Shown in pieces: positions 2,750 through 58,428 of a DNA stretch of 64,000 nt; the stretch's first letter is position 1; each line of letters begins with the position of its first letter. Below the pieces are notes generated by a model. The model had not been told where the DNA came from. It was given only the letters and a program-made list of their open reading frames with translations, and did not search any database. The DNA is taken from contig CAUYUJ010022542.1 in assembly GCA_963575745.1 (NCBI GenBank), positions 58,157 through 122,156 on the forward strand, in the 5' to 3' direction. A program made the translations under genes and the position numbers. This stretch comes from Prorocentrum cordatum (lineage: Eukaryota; Sar; Dinophyceae; Prorocentrales; Prorocentraceae).

Positions 2750-3130
2750 ATGCATGCGAATCGCGCTGCGGTGGCAGCGGTACGAGCTGCAAGTGAAGAT
2801 CAGGACTGGGCTCTCCCGAAGTGGTTTTCCTGGCCCGATGTGCAGGCGTTCCTTGTCGCCCCCGGCTTGGAGGGGGACCCAGAGGAGGCCGCGCGCGGCA
2901 TCGCGCAGCTCATGGACCAGATCGCGCATAGGGATGCGGGGCATGAGTTCCCCTTGGTCCAGCCGTCGGAGCTCGGGGTGGAAGTGAGCCTTATGAGCCT
3001 TATAGGCTCCATGAGCCATATGAGCCTTCTTGAGCCCTATGAGCCCTATGAACCCTATGAGACCCATGAGCCCTATGAGCCGCATGAGACTTTATGGCGA
3101 AGCGCAGCGAGCTCCCAACTCTTGTGTTAA
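2750..3130 (+). CDS. hypothetical protein fragment with C-terminal YEP repeats
   Basis: The open frame runs from ATG at 2750 to TAA at 3128, 126 residues. Residues 20-75 look like real coding sequence: they are compositionally mixed, rich in G/C at the third codon position, and include KWFSWPDVQAFLVAPG and EEAARGIAQLMDQIAHRD. From about residue 85 the frame runs through a 9-bp tandem repeat (about 2990-3095) encoding EPYEPYE-type sequence, so the end may be repeat-derived. No family is recognised. It begins 42 bp after the MITE relic. It may be one exon of a larger gene or a gene fragment. Confidence 0.35.
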   Translation: MHANRAAVAAVRAASEDQDWALPKWFSWPDVQAFLVAPGLEGDPEEAARGIAQLMDQIAHRDAGHEFPLVQPSELGVEVSLMSLIGSMSHMSLLEPYEPYEPYETHEPYEPHETLWRSAASSQLLC

Positions 3131-13851: not shown

Positions 13852-15095
13852 CAGGCTGAGGCTGAGGCTGATGCAGGCTGAGGCTGAGGCAGGCTGAGGC
13901 TGAGGCCGAGGCTGAAGGCAGACTGAGGCTGAGGCTGAGGCTGAGAGGCAGGCTGAGGCTGATGCTGAGGCAGGCGGATGCTGAGGCAGGCTGAGGCTGA
14001 GGCTGAGGCTGATGCAGGCTCAGGCTGAGGCAGGCTGAGGCCGAGGCCGACGGCAGACTGAGGCTGATGCTGAGGCAGGCTGAGGTTGAGGCCAAGGCAG
14101 GCTGATGATGAGGCAGGTTGAGGCTGAAGCAGGCTGAGTCTGAGGCAGGCTGAGGCTGAGTATGAGGCTGAGGCTGAGGCTGAGGCTGAGGCTGAGGCTG
14201 AGGCTGAGGCTGAGGCAGGCTGAGGCAGACGCTGAGGCAGGCTGATGCTGAGGCAGGCTGATGCAGGCTGACGCTGAGGCAGGCTGAGGCTGAGGCCGAG
14301 GCCGAAGGCAGACTGAGGCTGAGGCTGAAGCAGGCTGAGGCTGAGGCTGAAGCAGGCTGAGGCTGAGGCTGAGGCAGGCTGAGACTGAGGCTGAGGCTGA
14401 GGCTGAGGCCGACGGCAGACGCTGAGGCAGGCTGAGGCTGAGGCTGAGGCTGATGCCGCGGCCGAGGCCGAGGCTGAAGGCAGACTGAGACTGAGGCTGA
14501 AGCAGGCTGAGGCTGAGGCTGAGGCAGGCTGAGGCTGAGGCTTAAGGCAGGCTGATGCTGAGGCAGGCTGAGGCTGAGGCTGAGGCAGGCTGATGCTGAG
14601 GCAGGCTGAGGCTGAGGCTGAGGCAGGCTGAGGCTGAGGCTGAGGCAGGCTGAGGCTGATGCTGAGGCAGGCTGAGGCTGAGGCAGGCTGATGCTGAAGC
14701 AGGCCGAGGCTGAGGCAGCCTGAGGCAGTCTGAGGCTGAGGCTGAGGCCGAGGCTGAGGCTGAGGCTGAGGCTGAGGCGGGCTGAGGCAGACGCTGAGGC
14801 AGGCTGAGGCTGAGGCTGATGCAGGCTGAGGCTCTGGCCGAGGCTGAAGGTAGACTGAGGCTGAGGCCGAAGCAGGCTGAGGCAGACGCTGAAGCAGGCT
14901 GAGGCTGAGGCTGAGGCAGGCTGAGGCTGAGGCAGGCTGAGGCTGAGGCTGAGGCTGATGCAGGCTGAGGCTGAGGCAGGCTGAGGCCGAGGCTGAAGGC
15001 ATACTGATGCTGAGGCTGAAGCAGGCTGAGGCTGAGGCTGAGGCAGGCTGATGCTGAGGCTGAGGCAGGCTGATGCTGAGGCAGGCTGAGGCTGA
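13852..15095 (+). repeat. GCTGAG hexamer satellite, copy 1
   Basis: GCTGAG units occur with GCAG, GATGCTG and GCCGAG variants. The minus strand is open for nearly 600 codons and reads as a Ser/Ala/Gln/Pro repeat. It is not a gene. Confidence 0.9.
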
Positions 15096-15392
15096 GGCTG
15101 TGACTGCGACTGCCGTCGCCGCTGCGACTGTCATCGCGAATGCGACTGCGACTGAGAGAACAGCAGAATTCTACAACTGGATTTTCATATGAATTTTAAG
15201 GGGAATGCTTCCATATATGCTTCTACACATCGCTGTTAGGTTGCTTTGCCGGGATAGTTGTTACCTAACAGCGAAGACTGATAGGTTTTTAGTGGTGTCA
15301 AAAGAGAGCATCATGACTCCCCAGGGGGGTCCGGGCGGGATTCGGACGGGATCCGGGGGAATCCGGAGATTCATTTTTAGCCAACAGTAACG
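15096..15392 (+). repeat. composite-unit tail and next leader
   Basis: The tail of copy 1 (GACTGCGACTGCCGTCGCC, GAATTCTACAACTGG) ends near 15253. The leader of copy 2 begins there and matches 12525-12668. Confidence 0.75.
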
Positions 15393-15744: not shown

Positions 15745-17015
15745 CAGGCTGATGCTGAGGCTGGGGCAGGCTGAGGCTGAGGCAGCCTGAGGCTGAGGCC
15801 GAGGCTGAAGCAGGCTGAGGCTGAGGCTGCAGCAGGCTGAGGCTGAGGCTGAGGCAGGCTGAGGCTGAGGCTGAGGCAGGCTGATGCTGAGGCAGGCTGA
15901 GGCTGAGGCTGAGGGTGAAGCTGAGGCTGAGGCTGAGGCAGGCGGAGGCTGAGGCCGAGGCTTAAGGCAGACTGAGACTGAGGCTGAAGCAGGCTGAGGC
16001 TGAGGCTGAGGCAGGCTGAGGCTGAGGCTGAGGCAGGCTGATGCTGAGGCAGGCTGAGGCTGAGGCTGAGGCTGATGCAGGCTGAGGCTGAGGCAGGCTG
16101 AGGCTGAGGCCGAGGCTGAAGGCAGACTGAGGCTGAGGCTGAAGCAGGCTGAGGCTGAGGCTGAGGCAGGCTGAGGCTGAGGCTGAGGCAGGCTGATGCT
16201 GAGGCAGGCTGAGGCTGAGGCTGAGGCTGATGCAGGCTGAGGCTGAGGCAGGCTGAGGCTGAGGCCGAGGCTGAAGGCAGACTGAGGCTGAGGCTGAAGC
16301 AGGCTGAGGCTGAGGCTGAGGCAGGCTGAGGCTGAGGCTGAGGCAGGCTGATGCTGAGGCAGGCTGAGGCTGAGGCTGAGGCTGATGCAGGCTGAGGCTG
16401 AGGCAGGCTGAGGCTGAGGCCGAGGCTGAAGGCAGACTGAGGCTGAGGCTGAAGCAGGCTGAGGCTGAGGCTGAGGCAGGCTGAGGCTGAGGCTGAGGCA
16501 GGCTGATGCTGAGGCAGGCTGAGGCTGAGGCTGAGGCTGATGCAGGCTGAGGCTGAGGCAGGCTGAGGCTGAGGCTGAGGCTGAAGGCTGAGGCTGAGCA
16601 GGCTGAGGCTGAGGCTGAGGCTGAGGCTGAGGCTGAGGCTGAGGCTGAGGCAGGCTGAGGCTGAGGCTGAGGCTGAAGCAGGCTGAGGCTGAGGCTGAGG
16701 CAGGCTGAGGCTGAGGCTGAGGCTGAGGCTGAGGCAGGCTGAGGCTGAGGCTGAGGCAGAGGCTGAGGCAGGCTGAGGCTGAGGCCGAGGCTGAGGCAGG
16801 CTGAGGCTGAAGCAGGCTGAGGCTGAGGCTGAGGCAGGCTGAGGCTGAGGCTGAAGGCTGAGGCTGAGGCTGAGGCTGAGGCTGAGGCTGAGGCAGGCTG
16901 AGGCTGAGGCAGGCAGGCTGAGGCTGAGGCTGAGGCTGAGGCTGAGAGGCAGGCTGAGGCTGAGGCTGAGGCTGAGGCTGAGGCTGAGGCTGAGGCTGGC
17001 AGGCTGAGGCTGAGT
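15745..17015 (+). repeat. GCTGAG satellite, copy 2, with 155-bp higher-order repeat
   Basis: This has the same hexamer as 13852-15095. Between about 15960 and 16580 the array has a nearly identical higher-order unit; GAAGGCAGACTGAGG recurs at 16118, 16273 and 16428, exactly 155 bp apart. Confidence 0.9.
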
Positions 17016-17172
17016 CTGTGACTGCGACTGCCGTTGCCACTGCGACTGTCATCGCGAATGCGACTACGACTGCGAGAACAGCAGAATTCTACAACTGGAT
17101 TCTCATCTGAATCTTAAGGGGAATGCTTTCAGATATGCTCCTGCACATCTCCGTTAGGTTGCTTTGCCGGGA
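17016..17172 (+). repeat. composite-unit tail, copy 2
   Basis: It repeats 15096-15253 (TGTGACTGCGACTGCCGT, AACAGCAGAATTCTACAAC, GTTAGGTTGCTTTGCCGGGA). Confidence 0.8.
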
Positions 17173-17970
17173 TAATGGATTTTTGGTGGCCCTCTGGGGC
17201 TCTTCATGGTGCTGTCTTGGAGTCCTCTGTGGCCGTCTTGGGGGCCTCTGCGGCCGTCTTGAGGCCATCTTGGGTTTGGGCCGTCTTGGGGCCGCCCAGG
17301 GCGCCTATTGGGCGGTCTTGGGGCGGTTTTCGGGGCCTCCTGGGCCGTCTTGGAGCGCCCGCAAGCCGAAAAGACGCAAAGGCAAGACACATAGGAAAAC
17401 CACAATGGAGAATAACTAAGTTTCACTTTTCGAGGCTCTCTTGGGAGGCTTCTTGGGGATCTCTTGGGCCGTCTTGGAGTTCTCTTGGCCCTTTTGGGGC
17501 AATCTTGGGCGTCTTGGAGCGTTCGTTTGGCGTTTCGGAGCCCTCGTGGGCCGTCTTGGAGGCCTCTTAAGGCGTTCTTGGCCCGTCTTTAGGCCCTCTC
17601 GCGGCCGGAAAAGCCCCGTGGTGCGCTCGTCGTCGGCCCGGGGGGGGGGGAGGGGGGCAAATCTCTGGTTTGAGGTGTTCTGGGGGTTCTGGGGGGGATA
17701 ATCTCACATGCCTGGAGACCCACAAGGGGTCGGCGGATTTTATCCGAAAGCTTCCACGGGTCGTCCACGAAGTGGTTTCCCAGGACAAACAGGAGAACTC
17801 TGCGGAGCGTTGTGCGCATCGGGTCGTGGTCTGGCCTCATCCTCCTCCTCGCCCTATTCTGAGAATCGTTGGCTCCCTGCGCTCACCGCATCTCATACGT
17901 GGACGGGCCGGGGCCTGATCTAATTTGACCGCCTGTCGACCTCGCGTCTCTTCCGACATCTTCCGGCTGG
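17173..17970 (+). repeat. TCTTGGGGCC satellite, conserved cassette, then unique
   Basis: Satellite units run to about 17595, with an AAAAGACGCAAAGG spacer near 17360. A cassette (17595-17745) reads GGAAAAGCCCCGTGGTGCGC, poly-G, then AATCTCACATGCCTGG and CACAAGGGGTCGGCGGATT. It is found again on the minus strand at 43336-43475. From 17746 to 17970 I see no gene. Confidence 0.7.
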
Positions 17971-18360
17971 TGGGTAGGAGGAAGAGGAGGAGGAGAAGGA
18001 GGAGGAGGAGGAGGAGGCGGAGGACGAGGAGGATGAGGAGGGGGAGGGGGAGGGGGAGGAGGAGGAGGAACAGGAGGTGCAGGAGGAGCAGGCGGAGCAG
18101 GGGGAGGAGGAGGAACAGCTGGAGGAGCAGGAAGAGCAGGAGGAACAGGAGGAGGAGGATGAGGAGGAGGAGGAAACGGAGGAGGAGGAGGAGGGAAGCT
18201 CCTCTTCCTCCTTCCCCTCCTCCTTTCTCTCCTCCTCTTCCTCTTCCTTCTCCTGCTCGTCCTCTTTTCCTCCTCCCCTCCTCCCCCGCCCCCCCCTCCC
18301 CCTCCTTTTCCTTCTCCTTCTCCTCCTCCTCCTTCCTCTCCTCCTCCTTCTCATCCCTCC
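17971..18360. repeat. (GAG)n then (CTC)n inverted microsatellite pair, 5' of LINE 1
   Basis: GAG-type purine repeats at 17976-18195 switch to CTC-type pyrimidine repeats at 18196-18360. They could fold into a long hairpin. The CTC run ends exactly where the spliced leader starts. Confidence 0.9.
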
Positions 18361-18382
18361 TCCGTAGCCATTTTGGCTCAAG
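18361..18382 (+). other. DinoSL relic, exact 22-nt match
   Basis: The sequence begins TCCGTAGCC and ends ATTTTGGCTCAAG. It is identical to the conserved dinoflagellate spliced leader with T at the variable first base. The leader is normally added to mRNA by trans-splicing. Its presence in genomic DNA directly upstream of a LINE shows that a mature, leader-capped transcript was copied back into the genome. The 5' UTR then runs 18383-18482. Confidence 0.93.
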
Positions 18383-18482
18383 GGGCCTGCTCCTGAACTT
18401 CCAACCTCGCTCGAGAGATTGAGGCGTGTGTTATTGTTCGGATTGCTCGCTCCCAGAGTAGTGGCCAGGGGTTCGCGACCCC

Positions 18483-19676
18483 ATGACTAAGACCCAGTAT
18501 GTGCCATGCCGGCAATGCGGGTATCAGTGGAACTGGCGATCGAAGCAGTCGTGTTTCCAGTGCGGAGGCGGACTCCAACCCAGCCCCAAGACGGCTCAAC
18601 CACCGAAGGGGCAATGGGCCTCGCCGCCCTCGATACCTCCATCTCCGCTTCCTCCGCAGCCAGTTTGGCCTATGTTTCCGCAGCCCGACATGTTCGGCAA
18701 CCATGTGACTTCCCCTTTTGCCATGGTCCCACCCAGGCCGCCGATGCCGCCGCCTCCGCTACCTGCTGATGCGATGGGCTACGTCCAGAGGGGCAAGTTC
18801 GGCCAAGGCGGGGGGAAGATGAGGAAGAAGAATCGCAAGAAGGTGAAGAAGGACAGAGATCTGGATCCAGATGATGTGGTCATGGAGGACGCGCTCGCCG
18901 TCATCGCGCGCCGCCTCGACCCACACCTCTTCAAGGAGCTCAAGAGTAAGGTCGCACCAGTGCCCAAGCCTGTTCCCATCTTGCCCGAGACCCGTCTCAA
19001 GCAAGCAGCTGAAGCGGCACGTGCGGCCAACAAGAAGCATCAACAAACACTGCAGTGGGTCGAGAAGGCCAAGCGGCAGTGGACCGAGGCGGAGCACTAC
19101 CTGGCGGACCAGGCCACCAAGCTCGCGGAGGCCGAGGCGGAGGAGGAGCGTGTGCGTGCCAGCTTGGCACCAGCGTCCAAGGCCTCGCCGCCCGCCACGA
19201 CGGGCATCGACCTCCAGGCGCTGCTGAAGGGCGAAGACATCTCCATCAGCGAAGGCGATCTACTCGACTTGGAGGGCCAAGAAGATGATTATGAAGGCGC
19301 TGGAGAGCTCCTCGAACAATGGCGCGAGCGGAAGACCCAGCTCGGCGCCTTCATCAAGCAGCTCGTGACAGAGCATTTCAAGCCCATGGCCCAGCAGGTG
19401 CAGAAGGATATCGAGACCATCAAGGAGCAGCGCCAGCGGTTGCTCTCCCACAAGCGTAAGAAGTGCAACGACGGAGCCTCCGCGGCGGGCGCCCCTGCAG
19501 AGGAGCCCGAGGTTGCAGCTACTGGCAGCACGTCGGCAGCATCGAGTACCCAGCTGGGGCCGTCTCAGGAGGAGCTGGACAAGATCAATGCGCGCAAGGC
19601 GGAGTTGATCGCAGCTGGCAACGGCATGAGCAAGGGCGACGCTGCTGGGAGCAGCGGCGGCGACGCCTACGCTTGA
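18483..19676 (+). CDS. LINE 1 ORF1 protein (zinc ribbon, coiled coil)
   Basis: It has 397 codons from ATG, the first in frame after the leader, to TGA. Residues 9-27 form a C-x2-C-x11-C-x2-C zinc-binding pattern with aromatic residues between (C9, C12, C24, C27). Residues 30-95 are Pro-rich. Residues 105-125 are strongly basic (GKMRKKNRKKVKKD). Residues about 165-230 form an Ala/Glu/Lys-rich coiled coil (QWVEKAKRQWTEAEHYLADQ). Another charged helix lies near 275-325. In LINEs, ORF1 proteins bind the element RNA and oligomerise through coiled coils; that role is inferred here. The frame is intact and GC3-rich, so this protein could still be made. The endonuclease frame continues in the same phase after the TGA. 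Confidence 0.8.
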   Translation: MTKTQYVPCRQCGYQWNWRSKQSCFQCGGGLQPSPKTAQPPKGQWASPPSIPPSPLPPQPVWPMFPQPDMFGNHVTSPFAMVPPRPPMPPPPLPADAMGYVQRGKFGQGGGKMRKKNRKKVKKDRDLDPDDVVMEDALAVIARRLDPHLFKELKSKVAPVPKPVPILPETRLKQAAEAARAANKKHQQTLQWVEKAKRQWTEAEHYLADQATKLAEAEAEEERVRASLAPASKASPPATTGIDLQALLKGEDISISEGDLLDLEGQEDDYEGAGELLEQWRERKTQLGAFIKQLVTEHFKPMAQQVQKDIETIKEQRQRLLSHKRKKCNDGASAAGAPAEEPEVAATGSTSAASSTQLGPSQEELDKINARKAELIAAGNGMSKGDAAGSSGGDAYA

Positions 19677-20765
19677 CAAGCAGCAGCCCACCCCCCTGGG
19701 CTACACCATGAGGGGGGCGCAGGAGCTCGCTGCGACAACATCGAGCCTGTGGGCGTGGCCGAGCCCACTCCTACTTCTACGAGTACGGCCACACGCGCGA
19801 CTTCCTTGTCGCCTCCGGGGCCGCAGGTGTCTGCGAAGGTTGAGACTCCTGTCCCAACGACCCTTGGCTGCGCTCACGCTAGAGGGGTTTCCCCGACGAC
19901 GGCGCAGAGCGGGCCGAGGAGCTCTGGGGCAGGAGAATCGGCTGGAGACCCGCGGCCGCTTGTTCCTTGCCCTGCTGTTCGTCCTGGACCCCCAGATTGC
20001 AAGGCAGGTGCAGAGAAGACGCTGAAGATCTACATGCGCAACATCACCGAGTGGGGCCCCAAGGTCGTGGACCACCTCAAGAAGGACTGGCAGCGCTACG
20101 ACGTCGTGGGGCTCTGCGAACATCATTGAGGAACTGAAGATATGGACGACCTGGGCAGCGACATTGCGAAAGCTGGTTGGAGGCCAGTGTTGTCTCCAGC
20201 AATGCCCAGGGACAACATCAAGAAGGCTGGTGGAACGCTGTCGGCTGTCAAGCGAGGCCTGAATGCTCGTTCTTTCGCTCACCTTGTCGCGGATGTCTCC
20301 CAGTGCTACGGCGCCAGTGATGGCGGCAAGAAGGAGCTCGGACGCGGCCCAGTCGACTTCCACGATTTCTCGGCCATGGGTATCAGAACGTCCTGGCAAC
20401 AGATTGTTGTTGTGCAAATCTACCTTGATCATGGACTTGGAGTTAGAGGCAGAAACTTGAGAAAGTTGCGAACGATAGGAGGATTTCCATCTGCACAGGC
20501 TGCCCCGTGGATCGCATTCGGAGATTGGAATGTAGAGCCTGCCGGCCTCCACACTTGGATGGAGAAGCTGGTCGCAGTGCAAGCCCCCCCTGGGAATGTG
20601 GTTATAGCGAGCTTCGCTGGAGAAGGGAGACTTTACGATTTCGCCGTCTGCTTCAAGGACCTTGCTCCCTTCGTGAGGAGCACGCAGTCAGTCGTGGGTG
20701 GCGAGTGGAGGGCACGTGCAGGCCTGCAGATCACGCTGGGCCTGAACCCGCCTGACGCTGAGCAC
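19677..20765 (+). pseudogene. LINE 1 endonuclease (EEP family), split by an in-frame TGA
   Basis: This is an endonuclease/exonuclease/phosphatase-type domain, which nicks the target DNA to prime reverse transcription. The N-terminal strand reads KTLKIYMRNITEWGPK, then YDVVGLCEHH, and is cut by TGA at 20127-20129. The same frame resumes at once and contains QIVVVQIYLDHG, the catalytic-type AFGDWNVEP motif (GDxN) and DFAVCFKDLAPFVRSTQ near the end. The part before the domain (19677-20020) is Pro/Thr-rich. No ATG lies between the ORF1 stop and 20034, so initiation of the second ORF is unclear. It could be reached by stop-codon readthrough or reinitiation, or be dead. Confidence 0.78.
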
Positions 20766-21860
20766 CGCACTTGTGCGGTGCCTAGGCCTTTCCCTCATCC
20801 TCCCCTGCCCAAGCGCGCGCCCGACCCTTCCAGTAAGTCGAGTTTACAGAAGAGCAGATCTAAACCCACGCCTGTGCCAGATAATGTTTGCGTTTATAAG
20901 CTTCGACGAGGCGCCGAAGGAGCCTCAGGGTTTGGAGATGCCGAGGCCCCCTTCGACCCTTTGCCAGCGGTGGGTGAAGCTCCAGGGGGAGACTTTGAGT
21001 GCGGTTTTCCTGAGGTCGGCCAGGCCCCCGAAGACCCCGAACCCGAACCCCGGGAGCAGCCCCCGCTAGAAGAAGATCCCGCTCCGTCCTCCGAGCCTCC
21101 TCCTCCTCCTCCTGACACCCGTTTGCTAGGAGATGTTTGGGCACATGCCCATCCCGATAAGCGCGTGCTGAGAGAGATCGAGCGAGGAGCCCCTTCGGTG
21201 AGCCGCAGCTGTTTAGGGTATCTTGCCGACCCCGTGGCTTCTGAACAGCTGGCTGTGAAGTTCAGCATCTGGGCTTCTCGCATGGGGAACTTTTACTGCG
21301 AAGAGTGCGCTATCCCGCCAGAGGCTCAGCCAGCCTTTAAGGGGCGAGGCGTTATACAACCTATTCAGGTCAAGGCTATCAGCAGAACGTCCGCCCCGCT
21401 GCAGTCCGTGCATAACGATTGTAACTGGTGGGCTGTTTTAAGCTCTCATTTATCATTGCTCGGCAGAGTCATGAACAAATCAGGGTCTGATAAGACTGTA
21501 GACCAGCTGCACGCTAAGAGTTTATCCCTGGCCCCGCGCATTCCAGAATTAGAGCTGCCCTCCCTCGACAGGGGCGCCGCCACTTCTTGGAGACGCGCCT
21601 TGGGGGAGATCCCACGCTTGTCTGCCAGGCAGATTCTCCCCTTGGCCGATGCAGCTGACAGGAACTTTAATCGCGCTTCCAGAATTGCAACGGACCGCGC
21701 GTTAAAAGGTTTCTCAGATTGGGCAGAAAGCCCCGGCAGTTTAGGAGGCCTCCACACATTAACAAAGCTCAGGCCCCGCCAAACGAGCGAGGCCCTGGGC
21801 GAAGGAGGTCTGCCCACATGCACTTCTTTAGAATTGAGGAACGCACGTGCCAAGCCCTGA
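20766..21860 (+). pseudogene. LINE 1 linker between endonuclease and reverse transcriptase
   Basis: The frame is shared with the endonuclease and ends at TGA 21858-21860. The first third is Pro/Glu-rich (PEDPEPEPREQPP, SSEPPPPPPD). Then a zinc-like pair FYCEEC and a folded-looking segment follow, ending in ...ARQILPLADAADRNFNRAS. I recognise no enzyme. Homologous LINE polyproteins carry a variable linker here. Confidence 0.65.
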
Positions 21861-23582
21861 ATTAAAAACTGGACCAGGCAAGATAGTCGAGGCCAGCTGG
21901 AGCAGACCTCTCGAGAGGTGCGCGAGAGTGCTCTGAAGGCCCCTCCTCTTCCTCCGTTGGACCCCTCTCGTTTGGATCGCATCCTCCAGAACACTCCAGA
22001 GCGCAAGTCACGTGGTTGTATCAACATTAGTGCCCGAGATATTTCATGGCTGCCGCCATCCGCTCGGTCTGAGCTCCTGGATATTTTCCACACGATGGAG
22101 GCTTCCATCTCGTGGCCGTGGCAGATGCTGCAGGCGTGGGTTGCTCTCCTGCCTAAGGATTCTGGAGCCGACCGTAGCATAGCCAGCTTTGCATATGTGG
22201 CACGATTGCGGGAGCAGATGCGCGGATATTGCACTGACCAGTGGGCAATCGACAGGCAGCGCAAAGCCAGGTTTGATGACGCTGTCAGGGGTAGCTCTGC
22301 CGTCCAAGCTGCCCTGCGCAGGCTGGTGCTTGACGAGAGCGCCAGCGAATTTCAGGTAACCATTGTATCTGCCCTTTTGGACGTTGACAGTTTTGATGAC
22401 AGTTTAGGCCCCCTGTTGGTTTTGCAACTCGGTACAACGCACAATTACCCTTGCGTCGTGCTCGCCCGTAGTATCCAGTTGCACCTCGCCCCCAGATTTC
22501 TGCGGAGTTTGCGTTCTTTCTCGGTTGCCATCCTCCCGTGGTGGGCGTTGCTCGCTGGGTGCAGGTCGGCCCAGCATTTGGCGGCTTGTGTGCTGATGGA
22601 CCTCATGTTTGAGGTCAACTCTCGGATTCAACCAGGGCTCGAGGCACGCGCGTGGGTTGATGACGTGAATAGCAGGGCCGAAGGCACAGCCCAGCAGGTC
22701 ACATCTAGCACAGTCGAGTTTGTGCGTGAGTTTTAAGCCGGTCTTGATAACTTACGTTTGTCTCTTTCCAGCAAGTCGTGCGCCATTGCCTCATCCCCGC
22801 TCGTCGCCCAAGAAGCGGGGGCTGAGCTCGCCAAGACAGGTATCACCGTGCAGGTTTCAGGCAGTGCCCCCGATCTCGGCACCGACAGAGGCCACAATGT
22901 TAATCGTCGCCGCACCCGAGGCCTCCAGAGATGGCGTAAAGGAGTTCGGAGAGGCAACCGTATAGCTAGCCTACGTTCGCTCAAGCAACGTATTCGCCGC
23001 AAGCTTTTTAACAGGTGCTGTCCCGCAGGCCATGCACGAGTCAATTTTTTTGGGGTGGCCCCAGGTCGGCCACAGAAGTTGCGGCAGTCCGCCGCCCGTG
23101 CCGTCTGGGAGCAAAAGCAAGGCAGGTGTCTCACGACTGTGTTAGCCCTCAGGTTCGGATCCAGGGACCCTGCGGCTTTCGCCGTTATAGACATGTTGGT
23201 GGAGTGGTTCCGCTATTTGAGAATGGACGGTACCCCGATCGGCCGCCTCCAAGACGCCCGGAGGAAGATTTATAGCCGAGTCGCCACCATCCCAGCCAAT
23301 CGCAGGTGGTTCAGAATCCGTGGCCCAATGTCTGCTATCATCGCCTCCCTCCTTGCGCTTGGATGGGACACTCCTGGGCTCTTCGAGTGGCGCGACTCAT
23401 TCGATGAGCGCTGGGAGGCCCCCGTCCAAGACCTCCCCTCTCTCCGCGCGTTTCTCTCTTCTTACGACCCCTCCGACCTGCTGGCCGCCGTCCACAAGAC
23501 TGTGGAGGTCAAGCTGTGGGCAGGCGCGTCCACCCAGCACTTGGGTGGCGGGATGGAGGAGGGCGTCGAGTTGTTCAGCTGA
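21861..23582 (+). pseudogene. LINE 1 reverse transcriptase domain
   Basis: This reading frame is in phase with the linker and broken by TAA at 22734. Fingers: WVALLPKDSGADRSIASFAY. Motif A: LLDVDSFDDS (about 22376-22405). Motif B region: LLAGCRSAQHLAACVL. Motif C: ARAWVDDVNSRAEGT with both Asp intact (about 22648-22690). After the TAA the thumb continues: LSLSSKSCAIASS, TGITVQVSGSAPDLGTD, then the basic RRRTRGLQRWRKG and a long helical region to TGA at 23580. The catalytic residues are preserved, so the lesions are recent. GTG and TTG codons that could open sub-frames are not real starts in a eukaryote. Confidence 0.85.
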
Positions 23583-24520
23583 AGGCAGCAGCTCGCGAGG
23601 CTCGAGAAAGCCCAAGAGTTCCAGACCAGAGCTGCAGTTGAGTGTGCCGCAGCAGCGGGCATGTGGCCCAGACAGCGCATTGCAGAGCGTTGTGTTGTAC
23701 ATGAATTTGACCCCACGTGCCCATGGTGTGGAGGGCCCCCCGAGAGCCTCCGCCATCGTGTTTGGCAATGCCCGAGCAATGCGGACCTCCCAGAGTGCCA
23801 AGATATGCAAGATGTGGTCGGGGCAGCCGAAACTGCCCTAGACCAGAATTCAAATCTTTGTTTTTGGCTCCGAGGCATGATCCCTTCCAACCTCGCGTCC
23901 ATCCCCGCCCCCCCCCCCCCCCCCCCCCCCCCCGATGCAGTTGAGCTGCGCGACGTGACCTACCCACCCATTGAAGCTAGCGGTGTTGCGACCCTCGGTG
24001 GTGGCGAGCCCCCAGCTGAAGTGGTGGGGCGTCTGTTCGCGGGTGACGGGTCTGGGGGTGCGAATGCTAAGGGCCCAAGGCTTCGGCGATGTGCCTGGGC
24101 GTGGGTCGAGCTCAACCCGAGGTCTCTGGAAGCGGAGGTCGTGCGTCGTAGGAGCGCCCCCCTGGCTGGTCGTAGACAGACCTCCAACAGGGCTGAGCTT
24201 TGGGCTCTCTTATATTGCGTGCAACAGATTTCGGATGATTTGGCTTTTTTTGAATGACTCGGCCTACGTTGTCCGAGGCTGGTTCAAACTTCTGGCGGGC
24301 GGCATGCCCAAGTCAAACCTCGATGCGTGGTTTTCCCTGGCCAATGTCGCCGAAACCAGGGCCCGAGGGATCACCGCAATTAAGGTTGAGAGCCATGTGA
24401 GCGAAGATCGATACCGCGCACTTGGACTCCCTGAGCTGTTTCGCCTTGCGAATGCCGAGGCCGATCGGATCGCCGAGTGGGAAGCTCGGGATGTGCCAGG
24501 TATTGGCCCTGACACAACCC
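23583..24520 (+). pseudogene. LINE 1 zinc finger and RNase H domain, frameshifted
   Basis: Zinc finger: CPWCGGPPESLRHRVWQC (C-x2-C-x8-H-x4-C). RNase H: FAGDGSGG (first Asp), TSNRAELWALLY (Glu), then NDSAYVVRGWF (Asp), IKVESHVSEDR (His) and NAEADRIAEWE (last Asp). All the usual acidic residues are visible. The frame moves by one base at a run of seven T (24244-24250); one T fewer would keep the domain in frame. It returns to the original frame near 24515. RNase H degrades the RNA strand of the RNA-DNA hybrid during insertion. A 26-base C run (23908-23933) lies between the two domains. Confidence 0.82.
23908..23933 (+). repeat. 26-base C homopolymer inside LINE 1
   Basis: The run encodes poly-Pro between the zinc finger and RNase H. 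Its length keeps the frame as assembled, but homopolymer length is a likely assembly error point. Confidence 0.9.
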
Positions 24521-25130
24521 AGAGTGTTTCGCTCTCGACGCTCTCGCCGAGCAGGTCCGTCTCCGTCTTGCTGCAACTCTCATTGCCTCTGCCCCTCAGG
24601 ACAGTCGCAGTCAGAGAGAGAGGGCGAAGCCCCTCGACGGAGTTCGGAAAGCTGGCCTGAGTAAGTTAGAGAGAGCTGTGCAGTGTTCCCCACATAAGAT
24701 TGGCCTTCAGTTTTTGGAATCAAGGTTTAGTTGCAGGTTGTGCCACCAGAAGCCCTCCAAGGAGGGGGTTGTGGATTGGCTGTCGACCCCGTGCAACCCC
24801 ATTGATTCTAGTGCTGCTCCCTCCGCCTCCAGGTCCGCCCCGCTCCAGATCGGGAATCAGATCGTCCACCCGACCCACGCTACCCGTTTTTTTGAGCACG
24901 CCGACTGCTGGGCGTGCACATCATGCGGGGGCCTCGGTATGGACCGATCGATCCTGCTGTTGGCCCAGCCTTGCGGCCCCCTCTCCAAGAAGGGGGCCGA
25001 GAATCTCAGCAAGCTGGAGAGGGGCCTCATGCCAGGCGCGAGTGCGCGGGCCAAGGCTTTCAACAAGGCCAAGGCCCGCCCAGCCTGCGGCGGAGGGGCC
25101 CCTCCCCTCCCTCCTCCCCCTCCCCTCTGA
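24521..25130 (+). pseudogene. LINE 1 C-terminal zinc-binding domain
   Basis: Back in the ORF1 frame: CFALDALAEQVRLRLAATLI, GLSKLERAV, then CRLCHQKPSKEG, HATRFFEHADCWACTSCG and LSKLERGLMPG, ending TGA at 25128. Cys/His pairs suggest a treble-clef or similar zinc finger. The matching position in LINE 2 has CICQRC, so the domain is a shared feature of this clade. A nucleic-acid-binding role is inferred. The last residues are poly-Pro from the pyrimidine tract. Confidence 0.7.
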
Positions 25131-25134
25131 GCTC

Positions 25135-25575
25135 ACTGGAACCCTCGGTGCAAAATCCTTCTCATCCCTCCTCATCCCTCCTTCTCCGCATCCCTCCTCC
25201 TCTGCGTCCTTCCCCTCCTCTCTCCTCCTCCTCCTCTCCTCCTCCTCCTCTCTCCTCCTCCTCCTCCCCCCTCCTCCTCCTCCCCCTCCCCCTCCTCTCT
25301 CCCCCTCCTCTTCCTCCTCCTCCTCCTCCTCCTCCTCCTCCTCTTCCTCCTCCTCCTCCTCCTTCTCCTTCTTTCGTCGCTCGCCCCCCGCGGCCCGCCA
25401 AGTAAACCCAGCCCGCGCCCCCGCGCGCGCGCGCCGGGCTTACTCGGGGGATGAGGAGGAGGGGGGGGAGGAGGAGGGGGGGGAGGTGGAGGAGGAGGAG
25501 GAGGAGGAGGAGGAGGAGGAGGAGGAGGAGGAGGAGGAGGAGGGGGGGAAAAGGAGGGGGACACAGAGAGAAGGC
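25135..25575. repeat. (CTC)n then (GAG)n inverted microsatellite pair, 3' of LINE 1
   Basis: CTC repeats (25157-25375) and GAG repeats (25446-25575) are separated by a 70-bp GC-rich spacer. The spacer itself contains inverted pieces (AGTAA...GCCCG and CGGGCTTACT). The arrangement mirrors the GAG/CTC pair on the 5' side. Confidence 0.9.
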
Positions 25576-26650
25576 TCTGGAATATGGGTTATGGGTTATA
25601 CGCTTCTGGCATGTGTGTCGGGGTCTCGTGGCGCGCCTCTCGGGGGCCTCTGGAAGGTTTGACGCCGCCCCTCCGGGGCGAGGAGAAGGAAGAGGCCTCC
25701 AAGACAGCTCCAAGATAGCCGAAGAGGCTTCCAAGAGGGCCCTGGGCGGCCCACGAGGGCCCCAAGGCGGTGCCTGAGGCGCCCAAGACGACCCGAGAGG
25801 GCCCCAAGACGGCTCCAAGAGAGGCCCAAGAAGGGAAACACGAACCGAGAATCCGAGCTTTCTACCCCGTGAGGTTCTCGGGAAGTCCCAAGGCCCCCAA
25901 TCGGATCCAAAAGGCCCCCAAGAAATTCCTAAGAGGGCCGACGAGGTTCCAAGAAATCTCCCAAGATGGCCCCAAGAGGCACAACTCATCGTGTTAAGAT
26001 TGGGTTTTGACGGGTTTTCATGTTTTTTCTGCCTTTTGGCATCCCGATGCTCCAAGACGGCCCAAGAGGCTTCCAATCCCGCTCCAATATAAAGGAAGAG
26101 GTCTCCAAGAGACCCCCAAGACTGCCCGCGAGGGCCCCAAGACGGTGCTTGAGGCGCCCAAGACGGCCCGAGAGGGCCCCAAGAGCCCCAAGAGAGGCCC
26201 AAGAAGGGGAACGCGACCCAACAGCAGAGCCCCCCCAAAAGGCCCACAGGAGGCCGCAAGAGGCCCCCAAGTGGTCCGACGAGGACCCCAAAAGCTTCCC
26301 GAGGGCCTAAAAGGCCCCTAGGAGACGTCCAAGAGGTTTTAAAATAGCCCAAGAGAGCCCTCGATGCGCCGAAACTGCTTCCAGCAGGCCCCCGGGAGGC
26401 TTCCGGATTGTCTCAATCTGGCCGCAGGTGGCCTCAAGTCGGGCCTCCACGCAGCCAAGACGGCCACTGACGGCTTCAGATTGCAGAACCGATGCCCCCA
26501 AGGGACCCTCAGACGCCCCCCCAAGAAGCACCCAAGAGGTGCCTCCAACAGCCAGTTGACGAAGCATGCGGAACACCCCAGAAGCTCCTCAGATGCCGTC
26601 GCGCGCCTGTGCTTGATAGCGTTGTCCAAGATCGTCCAGCGCCCCCCCGG

Positions 26651-28680: not shown

Positions 28681-28965
28681 TTCGAGGCTGTTGCCCCAAG
28701 ATGCCCGCAGGCTCCCTTGCCCTGTCGAGCAGCGGCCGCCGATAATGATGCGCTTCGCAATGGCGGAACTGCCAGAGGCAACGGGGTACTTACTGTAAGC
28801 ATGCCCTTCCGTCCAACCCCGTCCCTGATGGACAAACTTCCCACCGCCACTGCCATAGGTAGGATATGGAGGAGGAGGAGGAGGAAGAGGAGGAGGAGGA
28901 AGGGAAATAGGAAACCGAGGAGGAGGAGGAGGGGGAGGAGGAGGAGGAGGAGGAGGAGGAAGAGT
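28681..28965. repeat. unique stretch then (GAG)n at the 3' side of LINE 3
   Basis: No gene is seen from 28681 to 28865. GGAGGA repeats fill 28866-28965, that is (CTC)n in the sense of the minus-strand LINE 3. A TAA/ATT triplet patch follows to about 28995. Confidence 0.8.
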
Positions 28966-28995
28966 AATAATAATACTATTAGTATAATAATAATG

Positions 28996-29579
28996 CGGCA
29001 TAGAGGCGCGCCGTGTCTCTGGTTTCCGACAGGTCCGAGGCGGGGCAGGCCTGAGCAGGCCTTTGCCAAAAAGTAGAACGTAAGCACTCTAAGAGTGTAG
29101 AGGAACAGGGACAGCGGGAAACAAATATCATTCTTGCACGGCTGCCAGCCGAAGCTGGGTTTAAACCAGGAGCAAGCGAGAGGGCCTAGACAGGCCCCAG
29201 CAGGCTCAGCACAAACCCTGGGGAGCCGTCGCGCCGACGAGTCTGGGTACGACGCGCTACACGGACATAACTACCAACTGACTGTAACAGGCAGGCGGCA
29301 CGGCAACAACGCGGCGGCGGTGGCAGCACCTCAAGCCTGGAACGAGACCAAGCTCACATACACGTAGAACACGGAAAGGGGGGCGAAGAGCGGGGATAAC
29401 GCCATCGGCACATCGACCAGCTGGGTGGTGAGGGCGTCGGCATACTCGAAGGAGGCAGCACGCGTAGCGGGAGATCCTGATCCAAGTTGCACGCGGCACT
29501 CCCGCAAGAGAAAGTATCGCATGAGATCCAGTATGCACCATGGAGCGCACAAACCACTCAGTAGAGAGCCATGCCATAA
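28996..29579 (-). other. unassigned 3' part of LINE 3
   Basis: Partly open minus-strand frames lie here, but no motif is recognised. It may be diverged LINE sequence or an unrelated flank. Confidence 0.35.
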
Positions 29580-30529
29580 TCACAATTCAGACCGATGGGT
29601 AAACCCAGCATATTCAAATCGACCGAAGCGAATCGCAATCAAAACAAAATAATGCAGGTCGTCCCCATACTTCGACAAAATAGCAACGACTGGGTCAGGC
29701 ACTCGCGGGTACTTGTCCAGTAATTGTGGCTGCGGGGACCACCGACGGCACACATCGACAGGCTTCTGAAACACCATGCGAAATTCATCAGGCGCCGATG
29801 TCACGCCCATCAGCGTCCCAGCGGTAAGTAATAACTGTATGTCGCCACCAACAGCCTCAATATGGAGTACATGGGTGTACCGACGATCCTGCAGTGACTC
29901 AGCGTCAGCATATGGTAGATACGAAGGAAAAGACACTTCATCAAATCGTTCGTGCGAGCAGCATCCGTATGCACTGGTCATGCCGTCAAAAACTGCAATA
30001 TAATACTTACATTCCCTTCGAAAAAGAAACAAGCAGTAACATGCGCGGCCAGGGCCGCATTTTCACGTCGTCGATGTGCTCCGTCTGGTCTACGTTCTGG
30101 AGGCTGGGATGGATCTTCTTCTTGCCCTGGTCGTAGCACTTGGTTCTGCGGAACAGGCGCGCTTCGTCCCAGGCCCCCCCCCAGCGAAGCTTTGCAAAAC
30201 CATTCCTTGCACCGCGGGAGCAGCTCCGAATACACGTCCTTGACCAGCGCGTGATGTGAGCAACATGGGGGCACCTTTGTATATGCATCTGCAAACAGCA
30301 CGAACCGGCGGTAACCAATCCCACTAGGTGAACTCCAGCAGGGGACAGCACGTCGACGGGATGCCTTCTTTAGCGCAACTATCGCCCGCTCAAGACCACG
30401 GGCTCCTTTTTCCTGACAAATGTCTCGATCCGTGGGGCCCATGGGCAACATGGCATCACGTCGAGCCTCCAAGCCAGCAGGAATGATTGCAATAGCCCTA
30501 GGGCCACCACGCGCACCAGGAAGGGACAT
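29580..30529 (-). pseudogene. LINE 3 reverse transcriptase domain
   Basis: Minus strand. Motif A is YYIAVFDGMTSAYGC (30006-29961), then SHERFDEVSFPSYLP. Motif B is LLLTAGTLMGVTSAPDEF (29836-29780). Motif C is YGDDLHYF (29670-29646) with both Asp intact. Upstream (30529-30033) the coding moves between frames; GIGYRRFVLFAD is visible before motif A. The frame stops at 29580 after FEYAGFTHRSEL, where the rest of the thumb would be expected. The palm is well kept. Confidence 0.82.
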
Positions 30530-32049
30530 CAGATGCTTGAGCTCCTGTACGCATGGGGCATTTTTTTCTCACGGCGTTGTGCGTGTAAAGCGTGGGGCCG
30601 AAACCAGTGCCCGCCAGCCGTCTAGATAGATATTGTGCAGTGGCCAGTTGTCGCTTTCTCCACGCCACTGCCAACCCCTCAATCCAAGAAGAATGCAATT
30701 GGCGTCGCCATTTTTGCACGCGTCCTGTGAGTCGAGCAGAGCGGTCCCGAATTTGACTGTCATGGTGCAGGTGCGGGAGGCTCTGCTGACAAAGGCGACC
30801 GCTACCGTGCAAATTGATGAGCTGTCGTGCGTCTCTCCGTAGTTGCTTCATGTGTTCAACAGATAATGTTTGTGAAATGGCAAAATCTTTCATCAGTGGG
30901 GAAGGCGCTGCACATAGTTCACGGCATCCATTCTCACTCATCACGGCCTCCACATATCCAAAGCTGATAGCCTCAACACGTCGCATCTGGCGCGCAGCCT
31001 CGGCAAGAAAATCTTCACGAAATCCGAGTGTCTGAACGGCGAGGGCCTGTGAATATTTGTTCCAACAACCATCCCGTCGAGGCAGTACCAATGGTAGCAA
31101 CAGCTCCACGTGCTTTAAAAAAGGGGCGTGGTCGATCAGGTAGTTGCTGCCAGGATATAGTTGCAGCTGCAGAGCCAATCTCAGCATGGCCAGGTACTTC
31201 GTCATGCAACAGCGTAGCCCAGTGGGGCCAGCAAAATGGTAACTCCACGACACGGTGTTCTTGAGCCCATGATATGCCGGCGTCATCAACACAACCGTGT
31301 CAGGACTTATGTGGTGTCTCTGGAGTACATCACGAAACCATAACCACAGTCGTGGGAAGCTCCAGGCAACAAGGCGAGGGCCCTTCCATTCACAAGCAGC
31401 AGCACGAGCACTCGACCGAACCTTTCGATGTTGGCAAGAGTCAAGTTCAAACACACGTCCATCATAATCCATTCTGCGATGTGTCAATGGTCCGATTGCA
31501 AGGTACTCGAACGCGTCGTCAGCACCGAAGAGACCGTTGAGATCCGCATACAATAGTGGGGTGAACCGATGTGGTAACAAAGCAAGTTCAACATGCAGCC
31601 AAGCCGGTGGCATATTCACAGTCTTCTTCCGAGCACCATACGCCCTGCCACCAGCAGAGGGGGGAACATAGAGGGCAACATTCGCGACATCAACACCAGT
31701 AGTACTAAATCGACACATTCCTCCCCGTCCAAAAATAGCCGCAGGTGGAGCAGATGTTTGACGTACTCTTCCTAGACGAACGTGACGTTTGTGTATGCCA
31801 ATAGATACTCCAGCGCTGCGATGAGTGAAGGGTCCTTTGGTCCCCACCGAATGAGTGAAATGGTGCGTGTCCTGGGCGCAAGCCCAGGACGAAGAAGTGG
31901 AACTCTCCCGCATACGTGCCCCCGTCGGAGCAATGAACGATCCGCTCCTCATCGACGTCGAAATAGCTGCCGATCGTCGCGTTTGTATCAGCAAGCACGG
32001 ATTGTAACCAATGAAAGTGCTGTGCGTAGCCGCGCAGGCGAGACACCAC
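30498..32049 (-). pseudogene. LINE 3 EEP endonuclease and linker
   Basis: Minus strand. The main part reads GVSIGIHKRHVRLGRVRQTS, PPAAIFGRGGMCRFSTTGVD, VALYVPPSAGGRA, then FTPLLYADLNGLFG (the DxN-type motif), and HRRMDYDGRVFE. This is the pattern of the endonuclease in dinoflagellate LINE polyproteins. A piece in another frame just upstream (32049-31840, GTYAGEFHFFVLGLRPGHA) appears to be its N-terminal side, so a frameshift lies near 31830. The linker ends WIEGLAVAWRKRQLATAQYL, a conserved Trp/Arg-rich step before the reverse transcriptase. Confidence 0.75.
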
Positions 32050-32083
32050 GAGACCATGGCGGTGCCCAGCCCTCTTGCTCGCA

Positions 32084-33571
32084 TCAGAACTGCTGTGGGA
32101 TGTACATCATCGGAGAGTGCGTGGGGTGGGCCTTTGGTAAGTCTCCAGATTCTGAAATGGGCTGGAGGGGGAAGAGGAGGAAGAGGGGGGGGAGGAGACG
32201 GCCGCCCGGCGCCTCGCCTCCACTTCCGCGAATCTCCGCCCCGATCGCGGCGAAGAGCGCGGTCAGGTCCGCGCTGCGCTGGCCCGCCGCCGTCGCCGGC
32301 TCGGCCGCCGCGGCTGAGCGCGCGTCGCCGTCGGGGCCCCCCAAGGCGAAGGGCGCGGCGTTGGAGCTCTCCTCGAACCCGCCGTGCACGAAGCCTGTCG
32401 CCCATGGGCCTGGAGGCGGGCGGCCGCGGGGCGCGCCCGCCCTCGGCCCCGCGGGCTCCGCGTTGGCCAGGCGGCCCTCGAGCTGCGCCACGCGGTCGGC
32501 CGCCGCCTCGAGCTCGAGCTGGGCCCGACCTGCATCGGCGCCTGCGCGGGCGACCGCCGATGCCGCCGCGTGAACCCTTATATATATTATTTATTTTTAT
32601 AGTTTTGCATTTTTGTTGTTTCGCTTCAACCCCACAATGTTTTTCCTGCCGGGGCTGAGGCGGCGACAGCCTGCAGAAAGATTCCCCGCCAGAGTTAGGC
32701 AGGGATACAGGGCCACCTGCAGGGGCCCTGCAAGTGGAAAAGCTGCGCGGACCGCCAGCCCTCGACTGCGCAAGAGGACGGGCGGACATCAGCCAGGATG
32801 CTGGGCTGCGACGGCGTTGGGGCTAGGGGCCTGAGCTCGCCGCCGCGTGAACCCGCGCGCGGGCGCCCAGGAGGGGGCGTCGCAGCTCGGCCGCGGGAAC
32901 GGCGCTGTCGTCCCCAGGCCGTCCTGGTCATCCATCTCGCCGACGACGGAGTCGCCTGCATCCTGGTTATCGACCGCGCCCTCCTGGGCGAAACCGCCGC
33001 CCTGCAGGAACTGCTCGCCGCCCTTCTCCGCGAAGACCGAACGGTTGCCGCGGGCGCCGGGGCCCTCCTCGAAGAAGGTCTCGCCCACCTCGGCGCCGAA
33101 CTCGGCGACGCTGCTGCCCGGCATCTGGTTGGGGCCCTCGGGCTAGGGCCTGGCGGCGCTGTTGAGAACCGTGAACGGGACGACCCGCTCGCCCTCCTCG
33201 TGGTCCGGCTCGAACTTCTCGCCGTGGCCCTGCATCTCGCGCAGCTGCGTCTCCGCGTCCATCCCGCCGATGTCTTGCCTCGATTCCAGCCGAAGACCTT
33301 TCTGGGCATGCCGGGGCTGCCCCTTGGGCGCCATCGCAAAGGAACCGTCGCAACGGCGAGCGCGAAGAGCTACGTTTCGGCGGAGTCGATCAACTCCGCT
33401 GGGCAGCTGGCCCGCAATGGGCGTCCCAGCTCAGGCAGAACGGCCTGGGTCCGATCCCAGACCTCCCGGCTGCCGAAAAGGAAGCCGAGGCAACTGAGCA
33501 GCTCCTCGCGCTTGCAACGCGCGGCGGTCAACATGTCGGCAAGCCGCCTGATGGCGGGGTCTGCCGAGGCC
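32084..33571 (-). pseudogene. LINE 3 ORF1-like protein, interrupted and frameshifted
   Basis: Minus strand, very G/C-rich third positions. It starts at ATG 33571 (MASADPAIRRLADML...) and runs to TAG 33372-33370. A second piece from ATG 33334 (MAPKGQPRHAQKG...MDAETQLREMQG) has a TAG at 33145-33143 and continues in the same frame through an acidic region (DNQDAGDSVVGEMDDQDG) to about 32905. After a shift comes a coiled coil (ARAGADAGRAQLELEAAADR) and ATGFVHGGFEESS. A 261-bp insertion (32578-32838) cuts the coding sequence. It may instead be a host retrogene next to the LINE: the leader supports a retroposed mRNA either way. No family is recognised for the N-terminal part. Confidence 0.5.
32578..32838 (-). 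mobile_element. 261-bp retroposed insertion with 16-bp target duplication
   Basis: GCCGCCGCGTGAACCC occurs at 32562-32577 and at 32839-32854, exactly flanking the insert. On the minus strand the insert ends in an A/T-rich tail (AAAACTATAAAAATAAATAA and TATATAA) directly before the second copy of the repeat. Length, tail and duplication fit a SINE or a truncated retroposed transcript. It lies inside the GC-rich coding sequence of LINE 3. Confidence 0.8.
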
Positions 33572-33722
33572 ATGGCCCAATCGCGCCTCGCGTTCCGCTC
33601 TGCCGCAGAGCGCGATGTGCGTGCGTCGCCCACGCCCCCCCGTAGAACCGTCGCCTCAAACAGCCGGCCCCAGACGCCGCATGCCGCGCGGGGAGATGGC
33701 GCCCCAGCGGGCTCGAGGCAAG

Positions 33723-33744
33723 CTTGGGCCAAAATGGCTACGGA
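33723..33744 (-). other. DinoSL relic, one mismatch
   Basis: On the minus strand it begins TCCGTAGCC and ends ATTTTGGCCCAAG. One base differs from the canonical leader (C for T in GGCTCAAG). It is immediately preceded, in the same sense, by (CTC)n-type sequence. The first ATG after it (33678 region) opens only a very short frame; the longer GC3-rich frame starts at 33571. Confidence 0.88.
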
Positions 33745-36480: not shown

Positions 36481-37735
36481 CACCTGCTTCTGATGTTGCG
36501 GGAGGGCGGGTGGGAGTGGACGGGGCCCTCTGGCTCGTTCGAGCTGGCTAACTTCAACAACGCCCCCCACCGCGCCCCCCGCTGCGCCCCGGCACGCCCG
36601 CCCCACCTGAGCTCAGTTTTTGGGGCCCCCCACGCGACAATTTCTGGCCCGAAACCTACCAACACACCCCGCCGCGCCCCCCACCGCGCCCCAGTATCCC
36701 CACCCCACCAGAGTTCAGTTCTTGGGACGCCCCACGCGACAATTTCTGGCCCGAAGCCTACCCACACACACACCACTGCGCCCCCCACCGCGCCCCGGCA
36801 CCCCCACCCCACCAGAGCTCAGTTCGCGGGGCCCCCCACGCGACAATTGCTGGCCCGAAACCTACCCACGCACCCCACCGCGCCCCCCACCGCCCCTGCA
36901 CCCCCACCCCACCAGAGCTCAACAGTTCTTGGGACGCAGCACAAGACAATTTCTAGCCCGAAAACTACCCACACACCCCGCCGCGCCCCCCCACGGGCCC
37001 CGGCACCCCCGCGCCACCAGAATTCAGTTCTNNNNNNNNNNNNNNNNNNNNNNNNNNNNNNNNNNNNNNNNNNNNNNNNNNNNNNNNNNNNNNNNNNNNN
37101 NNNNNNNNNNNNNNNNNNNNNNNNNNNNNNNACCGCGCCTCGGCATCCCCATCCCGCCAAAGCCCAGTTCTTGGGACCCCCCTCGCAACAATTTCTTGCC
37201 CAAAACCTACACGCGCACCCCCGCCGCGCTCCCCGCCGCGCCCCGGCACCCCCCCCACACCAAAGCTCAGTACTTGAGACGCCCCACGCGACAATTTATG
37301 GCCCGAAACCTACCCACACACCCCACCGCGTCCCTCACCGCGCCCCGGAACCCCCACCCCAACAGAGCCAGTTCTTGGGACCCCCCCCACGCGACAATTT
37401 CTGGCCCGAAACCTACCCCGCCCACGGGCCCCGGCACGCCCACCCCACCAGAGCTCAACAGTTCTTGGGGCCCCCCCCGCACGACAATTTCTGGTCCGAA
37501 ACCTACCCGCACACCCCACCGCGCCCCCCACCGCGCCCCGGCACCCCACTCCACCAGAGCTCTCTTCTTGGGACCCCCCACGCGACAATTTCTGGGCCGA
37601 AACCTACCCACGCACCCCACCGCGCCCCCCTCCGCGCCCCGGCATCCCCACCCCATACCAGAGCTCAGTTCTTGGGACCCCCCACGCGACAATTGCTGGC
37701 CCGAAACCCACCCGCACACCCCACCGCACCCCACC
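36481..37735 (+). repeat. satellite F, about 100-bp unit (RDNFWPETYP reading)
   Basis: GACAATTTCTGGCCCGAAAC recurs near 36646, 36748, 36843, 36946, 37290, 37394, 37482, 37581 and 37687. In one frame the unit reads PRDNFWPETYP. The long frame spanning it and the gap is repeat translation. Confidence 0.85.
37032..37131. other. assembly gap, 100 N
   Basis: A run of exactly 100 N lies inside satellite F. Its length is probably a placeholder. Confidence 0.98.
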
Positions 37736-57471: not shown

Positions 57472-57493
57472 TCCGTAGCCATTTTGGCGCAAG
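57472..57493 (+). other. DinoSL relic, one mismatch
   Basis: The sequence begins TCCGTAGCC and ends ATTTTGGCGCAAG; one base differs from the canonical leader (G for T). It marks the 5' end of a retroposed transcript whose body follows on the plus strand. Confidence 0.85.
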
Positions 57494-57735: not shown

Positions 57736-57759
57736 TTATTTGTGTGTCCCAGGGCCCCT

Positions 57760-58398: not shown

Positions 58399-58428
58399 AC
58401 CTGCACGTTGAGGACATGCTGAGACTCA

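Follow-up and report, generated by a model that had tools for sequence, protein, structure and literature searches.

The 64,000-nucleotide (nt) stretch of the Prorocentrum cordatum genome analysed here (contig CAUYUJ010022542.1 of assembly GCA_963575745.1, forward strand positions 58,157 to 122,156; hereafter the window) carries at 18361-25155 a 6.8 kb sequence that resembles a long interspersed nuclear element (LINE), is headed by the dinoflagellate spliced leader (DinoSL) and lies between CTC and GAG tracts (Table 1). A first-pass annotation had given the order as (GAG)n-(CTC)n-DinoSL-LINE-(CTC)n-(GAG)n, with an exact leader directly behind the CTC run. The sequence and an array search bear out this order, and all 21 specified leader bases, preceded by a T at 18361, are matched without mismatch at 18362-18382, and the leader directly abuts the 3' edge of the CTC run. 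Allowing up to three mismatches, three DinoSL sites were found in the window (0.00 expected from 100 shuffles), the other two having one mismatch each (33743-33723 on the minus and 57473-57493 on the plus strand). Because GGGCCTG directly follows base 18382, and not the GT donor that a spliced-leader RNA gene has, the leader does not look like part of such a gene. No relic leader was found 3' of any of the three leaders (within the next 250 nt in the case of the leader at 18361).

Downstream of a putative 5' untranslated region (UTR), a single long reading frame extends through most of the element. It is interrupted by TGA at 19674, 20127, 21858 and 23580 and by TAA at 22734, and ends with a TGA at 24255; the two other frames have 44 and 80 stops over the same interval. 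The motifs, which carry putative labels assigned by eye, follow each other from 5' to 3' as a CxxC finger, an EEP-like endonuclease, the reverse transcriptase (RT) motifs A, B and C, a CxxC-RHR-C finger and an RNase H-like part. Since the RNase H-like motifs continue past the TGA at 24255 in another frame, from about 24253, a frameshift presumably occurred at about this position. The LINE, called full-length in the first-pass annotation, is so in extent, the copy running from end to end, but its frame is broken by the five internal stops and the frame change. Over the preceding 5.7 kb or so (18483-24257) no frameshift is apparent and four of the five internal stops are TGA; the frame reads as having decayed by base substitution rather than by insertions or deletions.

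Scoring of the 7998 candidates with the most words in common turned up a sole homologue of the element, the partial and unnamed P. cordatum protein P0001, which is 69% identical to the endonuclease part over 212 columns and matches the N-terminal part, in residues from 18900 on, at 45% over 281 columns, the two parts being joined in one chain. The Pfam model Exo_endo_phos matches P0001 itself with an E-value of 0.018, which does not reach the cut-off. Together, the leader and P0001 make a dinoflagellate the likely host. When the N-terminal part and the 30498-32789 protein were used as queries, no homologues were found among the about 8000 word-sharing candidates scored for each, and scans of viral contigs with three proteins and one alignment gave no relative. 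The structure models of P0001 and of the 62066-63445 product (mean predicted local distance difference test scores 37.3 and 35.9, respectively) are too poor for fold comparison. The window has no tRNA or Rfam match.

The borders of the element are marked by a perfect 18-nt direct repeat, TCCTTCTCATCCCTCCTC, which occurs exactly twice in the whole window. The last two bases of its 5' copy (TC) are also the first two of the leader, and its 3' copy starts right after the 3' end of the element (...GGTGCAAAA). The inserted copy begins exactly with the leader, which starts where the repeat ends, as in a DinoSL-tagged retrocopy. The direct-repeat search of 17900-25700 returned 12 repeat families, namely the arrays of CTC/GAG, the 18-mer and short families resembling chance matches, and no pair of long terminal repeats (LTRs). 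Among the 141 end positions tested in the 5' CTC run, a match of at least 16 nt to the first 40 nt of the 3' CTC run was obtained for one alone, 18360, which immediately precedes the leader, and none of 3056 16-mers taken from other CTC positions recurred in the initial 58 nt of the 3' flank. When 84 same-strand pairs of CTC runs were compared, matches of at least 12 nt appeared in two, the second of which (29 nt, 61448/63999) is pure CTC repeat and uninformative; the 18-nt repeat is the sole long aperiodic match. Because these tests single out the junction position, we read the repeat as a target-site duplication distinct from the CTC background, as expected of a LINE, and therefore read the leader and the 6.8 kb LINE-like sequence as one insertion, extending from 18361/18363 to 25155.

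When the two flanks are rejoined in silico, one CTC run with a single copy of the 18-mer results, and the empty site would read ...CTCCTTCTCATCCCTCCTC/ATCCCTCC... (the slash marks the point of insertion). The mirrored CTC/GAG brackets described previously are thus real tracts, but they would be the halves of a split target and no part of the element: the insertion appears to have fallen in the CTC part of a GAG-CTC-GAG mosaic, hence the mirror. Segmentation by script gave 20 CTC-type runs on the plus strand and 13 on the minus strand of the window, where sense runs occupy 4.0% and 1.8% of the respective strand. In four of the six retrocopy 5' sides examined (the LINE at 18361, the leader unit at 33743, the LINE-like piece at about 32153 and the truncated LINE at 61450) the upstream 40 nt are 92.5-100% pyrimidine; the starts at 32153 and 61450 were set at the CTC border, hence they are not independent evidence. 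Sense CTC likewise lies upstream of three of the four LINE-like pieces in the window, two of these three ends being the ones set at a CTC border. The 3' junctions of three pieces, AAAA/TCC, CAAA/TCC and CTC/TTCC, would fit priming by a 3' end ...GGA of the GAG strand. Because two other LINE-like pieces also join their 3' end to a sense CTC run, the LINE machinery probably favours CTC/GAG tracts. Claims at the level of the family are drawn from this window, with one copy examined at both ends, and CTC specificity of the element is only suggested.

EEP-type LINEs have a characteristic motif order, target-site duplications and an A-ended 3' end. The element resembles them in its target-site duplication, in the order of its putative motifs and perhaps in its short A-ended 3' end, and a 5'-truncated relative is present in the window; it differs in that its 5' end is a host spliced leader and its domains are too diverged for the Pfam RT and RNase H models. 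We consider it likely that 18361-25155 arose by one retrotransposition of a spliced-leader-bearing LINE-like RNA into a CTC tract. The source LINE would have been transcribed and the host trans-splicing machinery would have added DinoSL to the 5' end of its RNA. The element's own endonuclease would then nick the GAG strand, at 5'-GAGAAGGA^GGAGG in the reconstructed empty site, and target-primed reverse transcription from this nick would copy the A-ended RNA up to the first base of the leader. A second nick 18 nt away would generate the duplication with its 2-nt overlap (TC) at the leader, and the inserted copy would have decayed later. Beyond the facts of the sequence, this scheme follows general LINE biology. 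The 5' end of the host transcript would be the leader followed by GGGCCTG..., or the leader followed by CCATTTTGGCTCAAG and GGGCCTG.... The earlier claim that a LINE transcript was trans-spliced, copied and inserted whole into CTC thus agrees with the sequence, with the 18-nt repeat and with P0001, but we infer the trans-splicing of the source. The further proposals of that annotation, a uniform 5' end through the leader and perhaps a host-supplied translation signal, go beyond what the one copy shows.

Several observations weigh against the proposed retrotransposition. A single copy supports it. Profile searches gave no RT or RNase H match in Pfam, NCBIfam, PHROGs or PDB sequences. P0001 does not cover 18383-18899, an interval that only frame continuity and the 18-nt repeat tie to the element. 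The A-rich 3' end of the element is just four bases long (AAAA). In 1495 of 300000 draws, two randomly chosen CTC positions had an 18-mer in common, which we put down to perfect CTC stretches, periodic as far as seen, TCCTTCTCATCCCTCCTC being aperiodic. The leader unit at 57473 lies outside CTC (47.5% pyrimidine in the upstream 40 nt), and a LINE-like fragment at 12795 has no CTC upstream of its open reading frame (ORF) (62.5% pyrimidine), the start of the ORF having served as its border, from which the true border may differ.

The best surviving alternative, in our estimate an improbable one, is a mimic: the 22-nt leader would be fixed in the LINE family's own 5' UTR, which would make trans-splicing unnecessary. 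Host-gene cycling leaves a relic leader cut at the AG after nt 7 (PMC3229502), and because the single leader at 18361 is followed by no relic within 250 nt, either this lineage has its first leader here, or splicing used the last AG of the leader as acceptor, or the leader is encoded. Mimicry has also been speculated for a leader found on the assembly of a dinoflagellate RNA virus (PMC10235124). Yet the element begins at the leader's first base, as a spliced RNA would, an encoded leader would also require transcription to start exactly at that base, and the host units in the window likewise carry the leader.

Even less probable is an endonuclease-independent capture, in which microhomology repair would have sealed a break in the unstable CTC repeat with a leader-capped LINE complementary DNA (cDNA). 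CTC/GAG repeats may be prone to breakage, and the 2-nt overlap at the 5' junction would suit such repair, but both ends bear a perfect 18-nt duplication, typical of staggered nicking, and the element encodes an endonuclease-like part. The case that the first-pass annotation named as its refutation, a leader of an unrelated retrogene that happens to precede a LINE, is scarcely credible: such neighbours are the likely situation at 33743-28961, where G+C falls from 70.9% to 54.5%, but at 18361 the 18-nt repeat encloses leader and LINE together, the frame runs from near the leader into the endonuclease, and P0001 is a single chain with both the N-terminal part and the endonuclease part. Growth of the CTC tracts from the element's own ends after insertion deserves as little credence. 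LINE tails can seed microsatellites (PMC2887409), but here CTC also precedes the 5' end and the same aperiodic 18-mer is found in both flanks.

Table 1. Features of the leader-headed LINE-like element, of its flanks and of related units in the window.
Feature	Position	Strand	Basis or remark
(GAG)n array, outer part of putative mosaic target	17976-18194		array search
(CTC)n run upstream of leader, sense strand	18199-18363	+	array search
5' copy of 18-nt direct repeat (putative target-site duplication)	18345-18362	+	repeat search, chance tests
DinoSL, TCCGTAGCCATTTTGGCTCAAG, exact	18361-18382	+	leader search; consensus in PMC6050394
Putative 5' UTR, 100 nt, leader to first ATG	18383-18482	+	sequence
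Single long reading frame, 1924 codons, five internal stops	18483-24254	+	frame analysis
N-terminal part, CxxC finger at 18507 and helical region	18483-19673	+	motifs; P0001 match from 18900
Endonuclease (EEP-like) part, GLCEHH and GDWN	20004-20771	+	motifs; P0001 alignment
RT-like motifs A (LLDVDSFDD), B (GCRS), C (WVDDV), LGTD	22374-22886	+	motif only
CxxC-RHR-C finger, spacing identical to 62318 in other LINE piece	23718-23771	+	motif
RNase H-like motifs DGSGG, NRAELWAL, NDS, KVESH; frame change near 24250	24036-24470	+	motif
Element 3' end, ...GGTGCAAAA	25131-25155	+	sequence, junction comparison
3' copy of 18-nt direct repeat	25156-25173	+	repeat search, chance tests
(CTC)n run downstream of element	25167-25369	+	array search
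(GAG)n array, outer part of putative mosaic target	25449-25561		array search
LINE-like piece, endonuclease-like and YGDD RT-like motifs by eye	28961-32153	-	ends at CTC borders; G+C 54.5%
Second leader-headed unit, one mismatch, leader 33743-33723	32198-33744	-	directly after CTC tract; G+C 70.9%
Third leader-headed unit, one mismatch, outside CTC	57472-58727	+	candidate 11-nt repeat 57460-57470, 58728-58738
5'-truncated LINE piece between CTC runs	61450-63970	+	zf-RVT match at E=0.033; TCC directly follows 3' end GGCAAAAACAAA

The stretch 33743-28961 was considered as a second leader-capped LINE and rejected. Because G+C breaks sharply near 32150, the leader at 33743 probably heads a separate unit, and this unit and the LINE-like piece at 28961-32153 were probably inserted separately, a single insertion of 4.8 kb being the less likely reading. 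A flank match of 17 nt that ends on the 33743 leader is the longest of 74 positions, yet 14-15 nt is attained at others, and the 3' copy of the match (28944-28928) sits inside the 3' CTC run; a 38-nt match between the CTC pieces of the same stretch (32/38) is ordinary, four arrays reaching 32. The 3' end given for the 33743 unit is a guess based on a 10-nt repeat (33745/32197), which is level with other run pairs and thus with chance. CTC-favouring LINE machinery may have placed this unit. Within it, two perfect 16-nt repeats (32562-32577 and 32839-32854) enclose a 261-nt stretch (32578-32838), AT-rich at one end (minus strand), that is likely to be a small non-autonomous insertion. In the case of the third leader-headed unit, the candidate 11-nt repeat (57460-58738) was rejected as proof of insertion, as 11 of 400 control positions equal it; its copy at 57460-57470 stops 1 nt short of the leader's T. 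The zf-RVT match in the truncated LINE piece was obtained by profile search with the 62066-63445 product. Elsewhere in the window, long AGGCTG-type tandem arrays of more than 1.2 kb each (13853-15100 and 15746-17018) both adjoin copies of a 73-nt repeat, and the translation of the ORF at 36493-38229 contains a run of X, i.e. an N stretch, which is a gap or masked.

Beyond the window, a leader pattern scan gave two loci in genome_contigs and one viral contig, without a LINE in the sequence read, and of 17 viral-contig loci that match a 16-base leader pattern, 16 fail to continue as the leader. IMGVR_UViG_3300045993_001077, an AT-rich contig of the viral collection, has two exact DinoSL copies (2746-2766 and 2893-2913, minus strand), the second of which is followed by less AT-rich, possibly host-derived sequence; a dinoflagellate retrocopy in a large DNA virus is possible. 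At the end of CAJXDJ010000191.1 (1-52), a contig binned as a Dehalococcoidia bacterium, a (TCA)n run leads directly into an exact DinoSL, which would be either a leader beside another trinucleotide repeat or a chimeric contig. JAKUNN010000063.1 (4334-4354, minus strand) has an exact DinoSL followed by GT between apparent ribosomal RNA sequence; although binned as a bacterium, it is probably a dinoflagellate contig with a spliced-leader RNA gene.

DinoSL-tagged retrogenes, understood as recycled cDNAs, were reportedly described by Slamovits and Keeling in 2008. Such recycled cDNAs of dinoflagellates are described in PMC3229502 and PMC6050394; the element at 18361 is like them in that a leader-capped RNA was apparently copied back into the genome with the leader marking its 5' end, but here the copied RNA is the LINE itself, and both insertion ends are visible with a clear 18-nt duplication. 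The element that mediates retrogene formation is called unknown in PMC6050394, with LTR elements favoured, and PMC12014239 credits retrotransposons in general for leader-tagged copies. LINEs of Symbiodiniaceae have been described as old, diverged remnants (PMC8045281), and LINE action has been suggested for endogenous copies of RNA viruses; of 26 such copies, 6 have a leader no more than 500 bp away (PMC10235124).

Transposon RNA bearing a host leader has parallels in other organisms: six genomic transposable elements with a spliced leader in Schistosoma mansoni, where the authors do not exclude chimeric assembly (PMC5832876), and the leader on about 30% of transposable element reads in RNA data from Hydra (PMC12220107). 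Unlike in these cases, genomic ends and a target-site duplication are visible in the element at 18361. The trypanosomatid LINEs L1Tc/ingi, which also reside in a trans-splicing host, have their own promoter, Pr77, and an unspliced RNA (PMC8190864), whereas the RNA copied at 18361 appears to have been trans-spliced. LINEs that target microsatellites have been described with restriction-like endonucleases (PMC4640811); the element shares with them the insertion into simple repeats, but its endonuclease looks EEP-type and its specificity is only suggested. No report of a leader-capped LINE with a target-site duplication was found among the top-ranked matches in open-licence papers.

A bolder and rather doubtful extension is that the LINE has a promoter-free cycle on the host leader, in which CTC targeting and the AGs of the leader would rebuild a splice acceptor in every round. 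By inserting in sense into CTC, each new copy would find a pyrimidine tract already in place just upstream of the leader, and the leader's own AGs (CCGTAG^ and CTCAAG^) would act as the splice acceptor; in Amphidinium the acceptor is AG with no simple surrounding consensus (PMC2488372). Read-through host transcription followed by trans-splicing would then re-cap the element at the same base in every generation, and identical machinery would also make the leader-tagged retrogenes of dinoflagellates. A LINE cycle that links target choice to re-expression was not found among the top-ranked matches in open-licence papers.

Dinoflagellate genomes hold many leader-tagged gene copies, and the retroelement that makes them is left open in PMC6050394 and PMC12014239. 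The combination of leader, A end and clean target-site duplication at 18361-25155 provides direct evidence at the sequence level that a leader-capped RNA can be carried through to its last base by LINE-type machinery. If the insertion is read correctly, such LINE-like elements would be candidate makers of the leader-tagged gene copies, and a sense CTC tract with a duplication ending on the leader would be the signature for a genome-wide comparison of retrogenes. If the CTC preference holds, target choice would be linked to re-expression.

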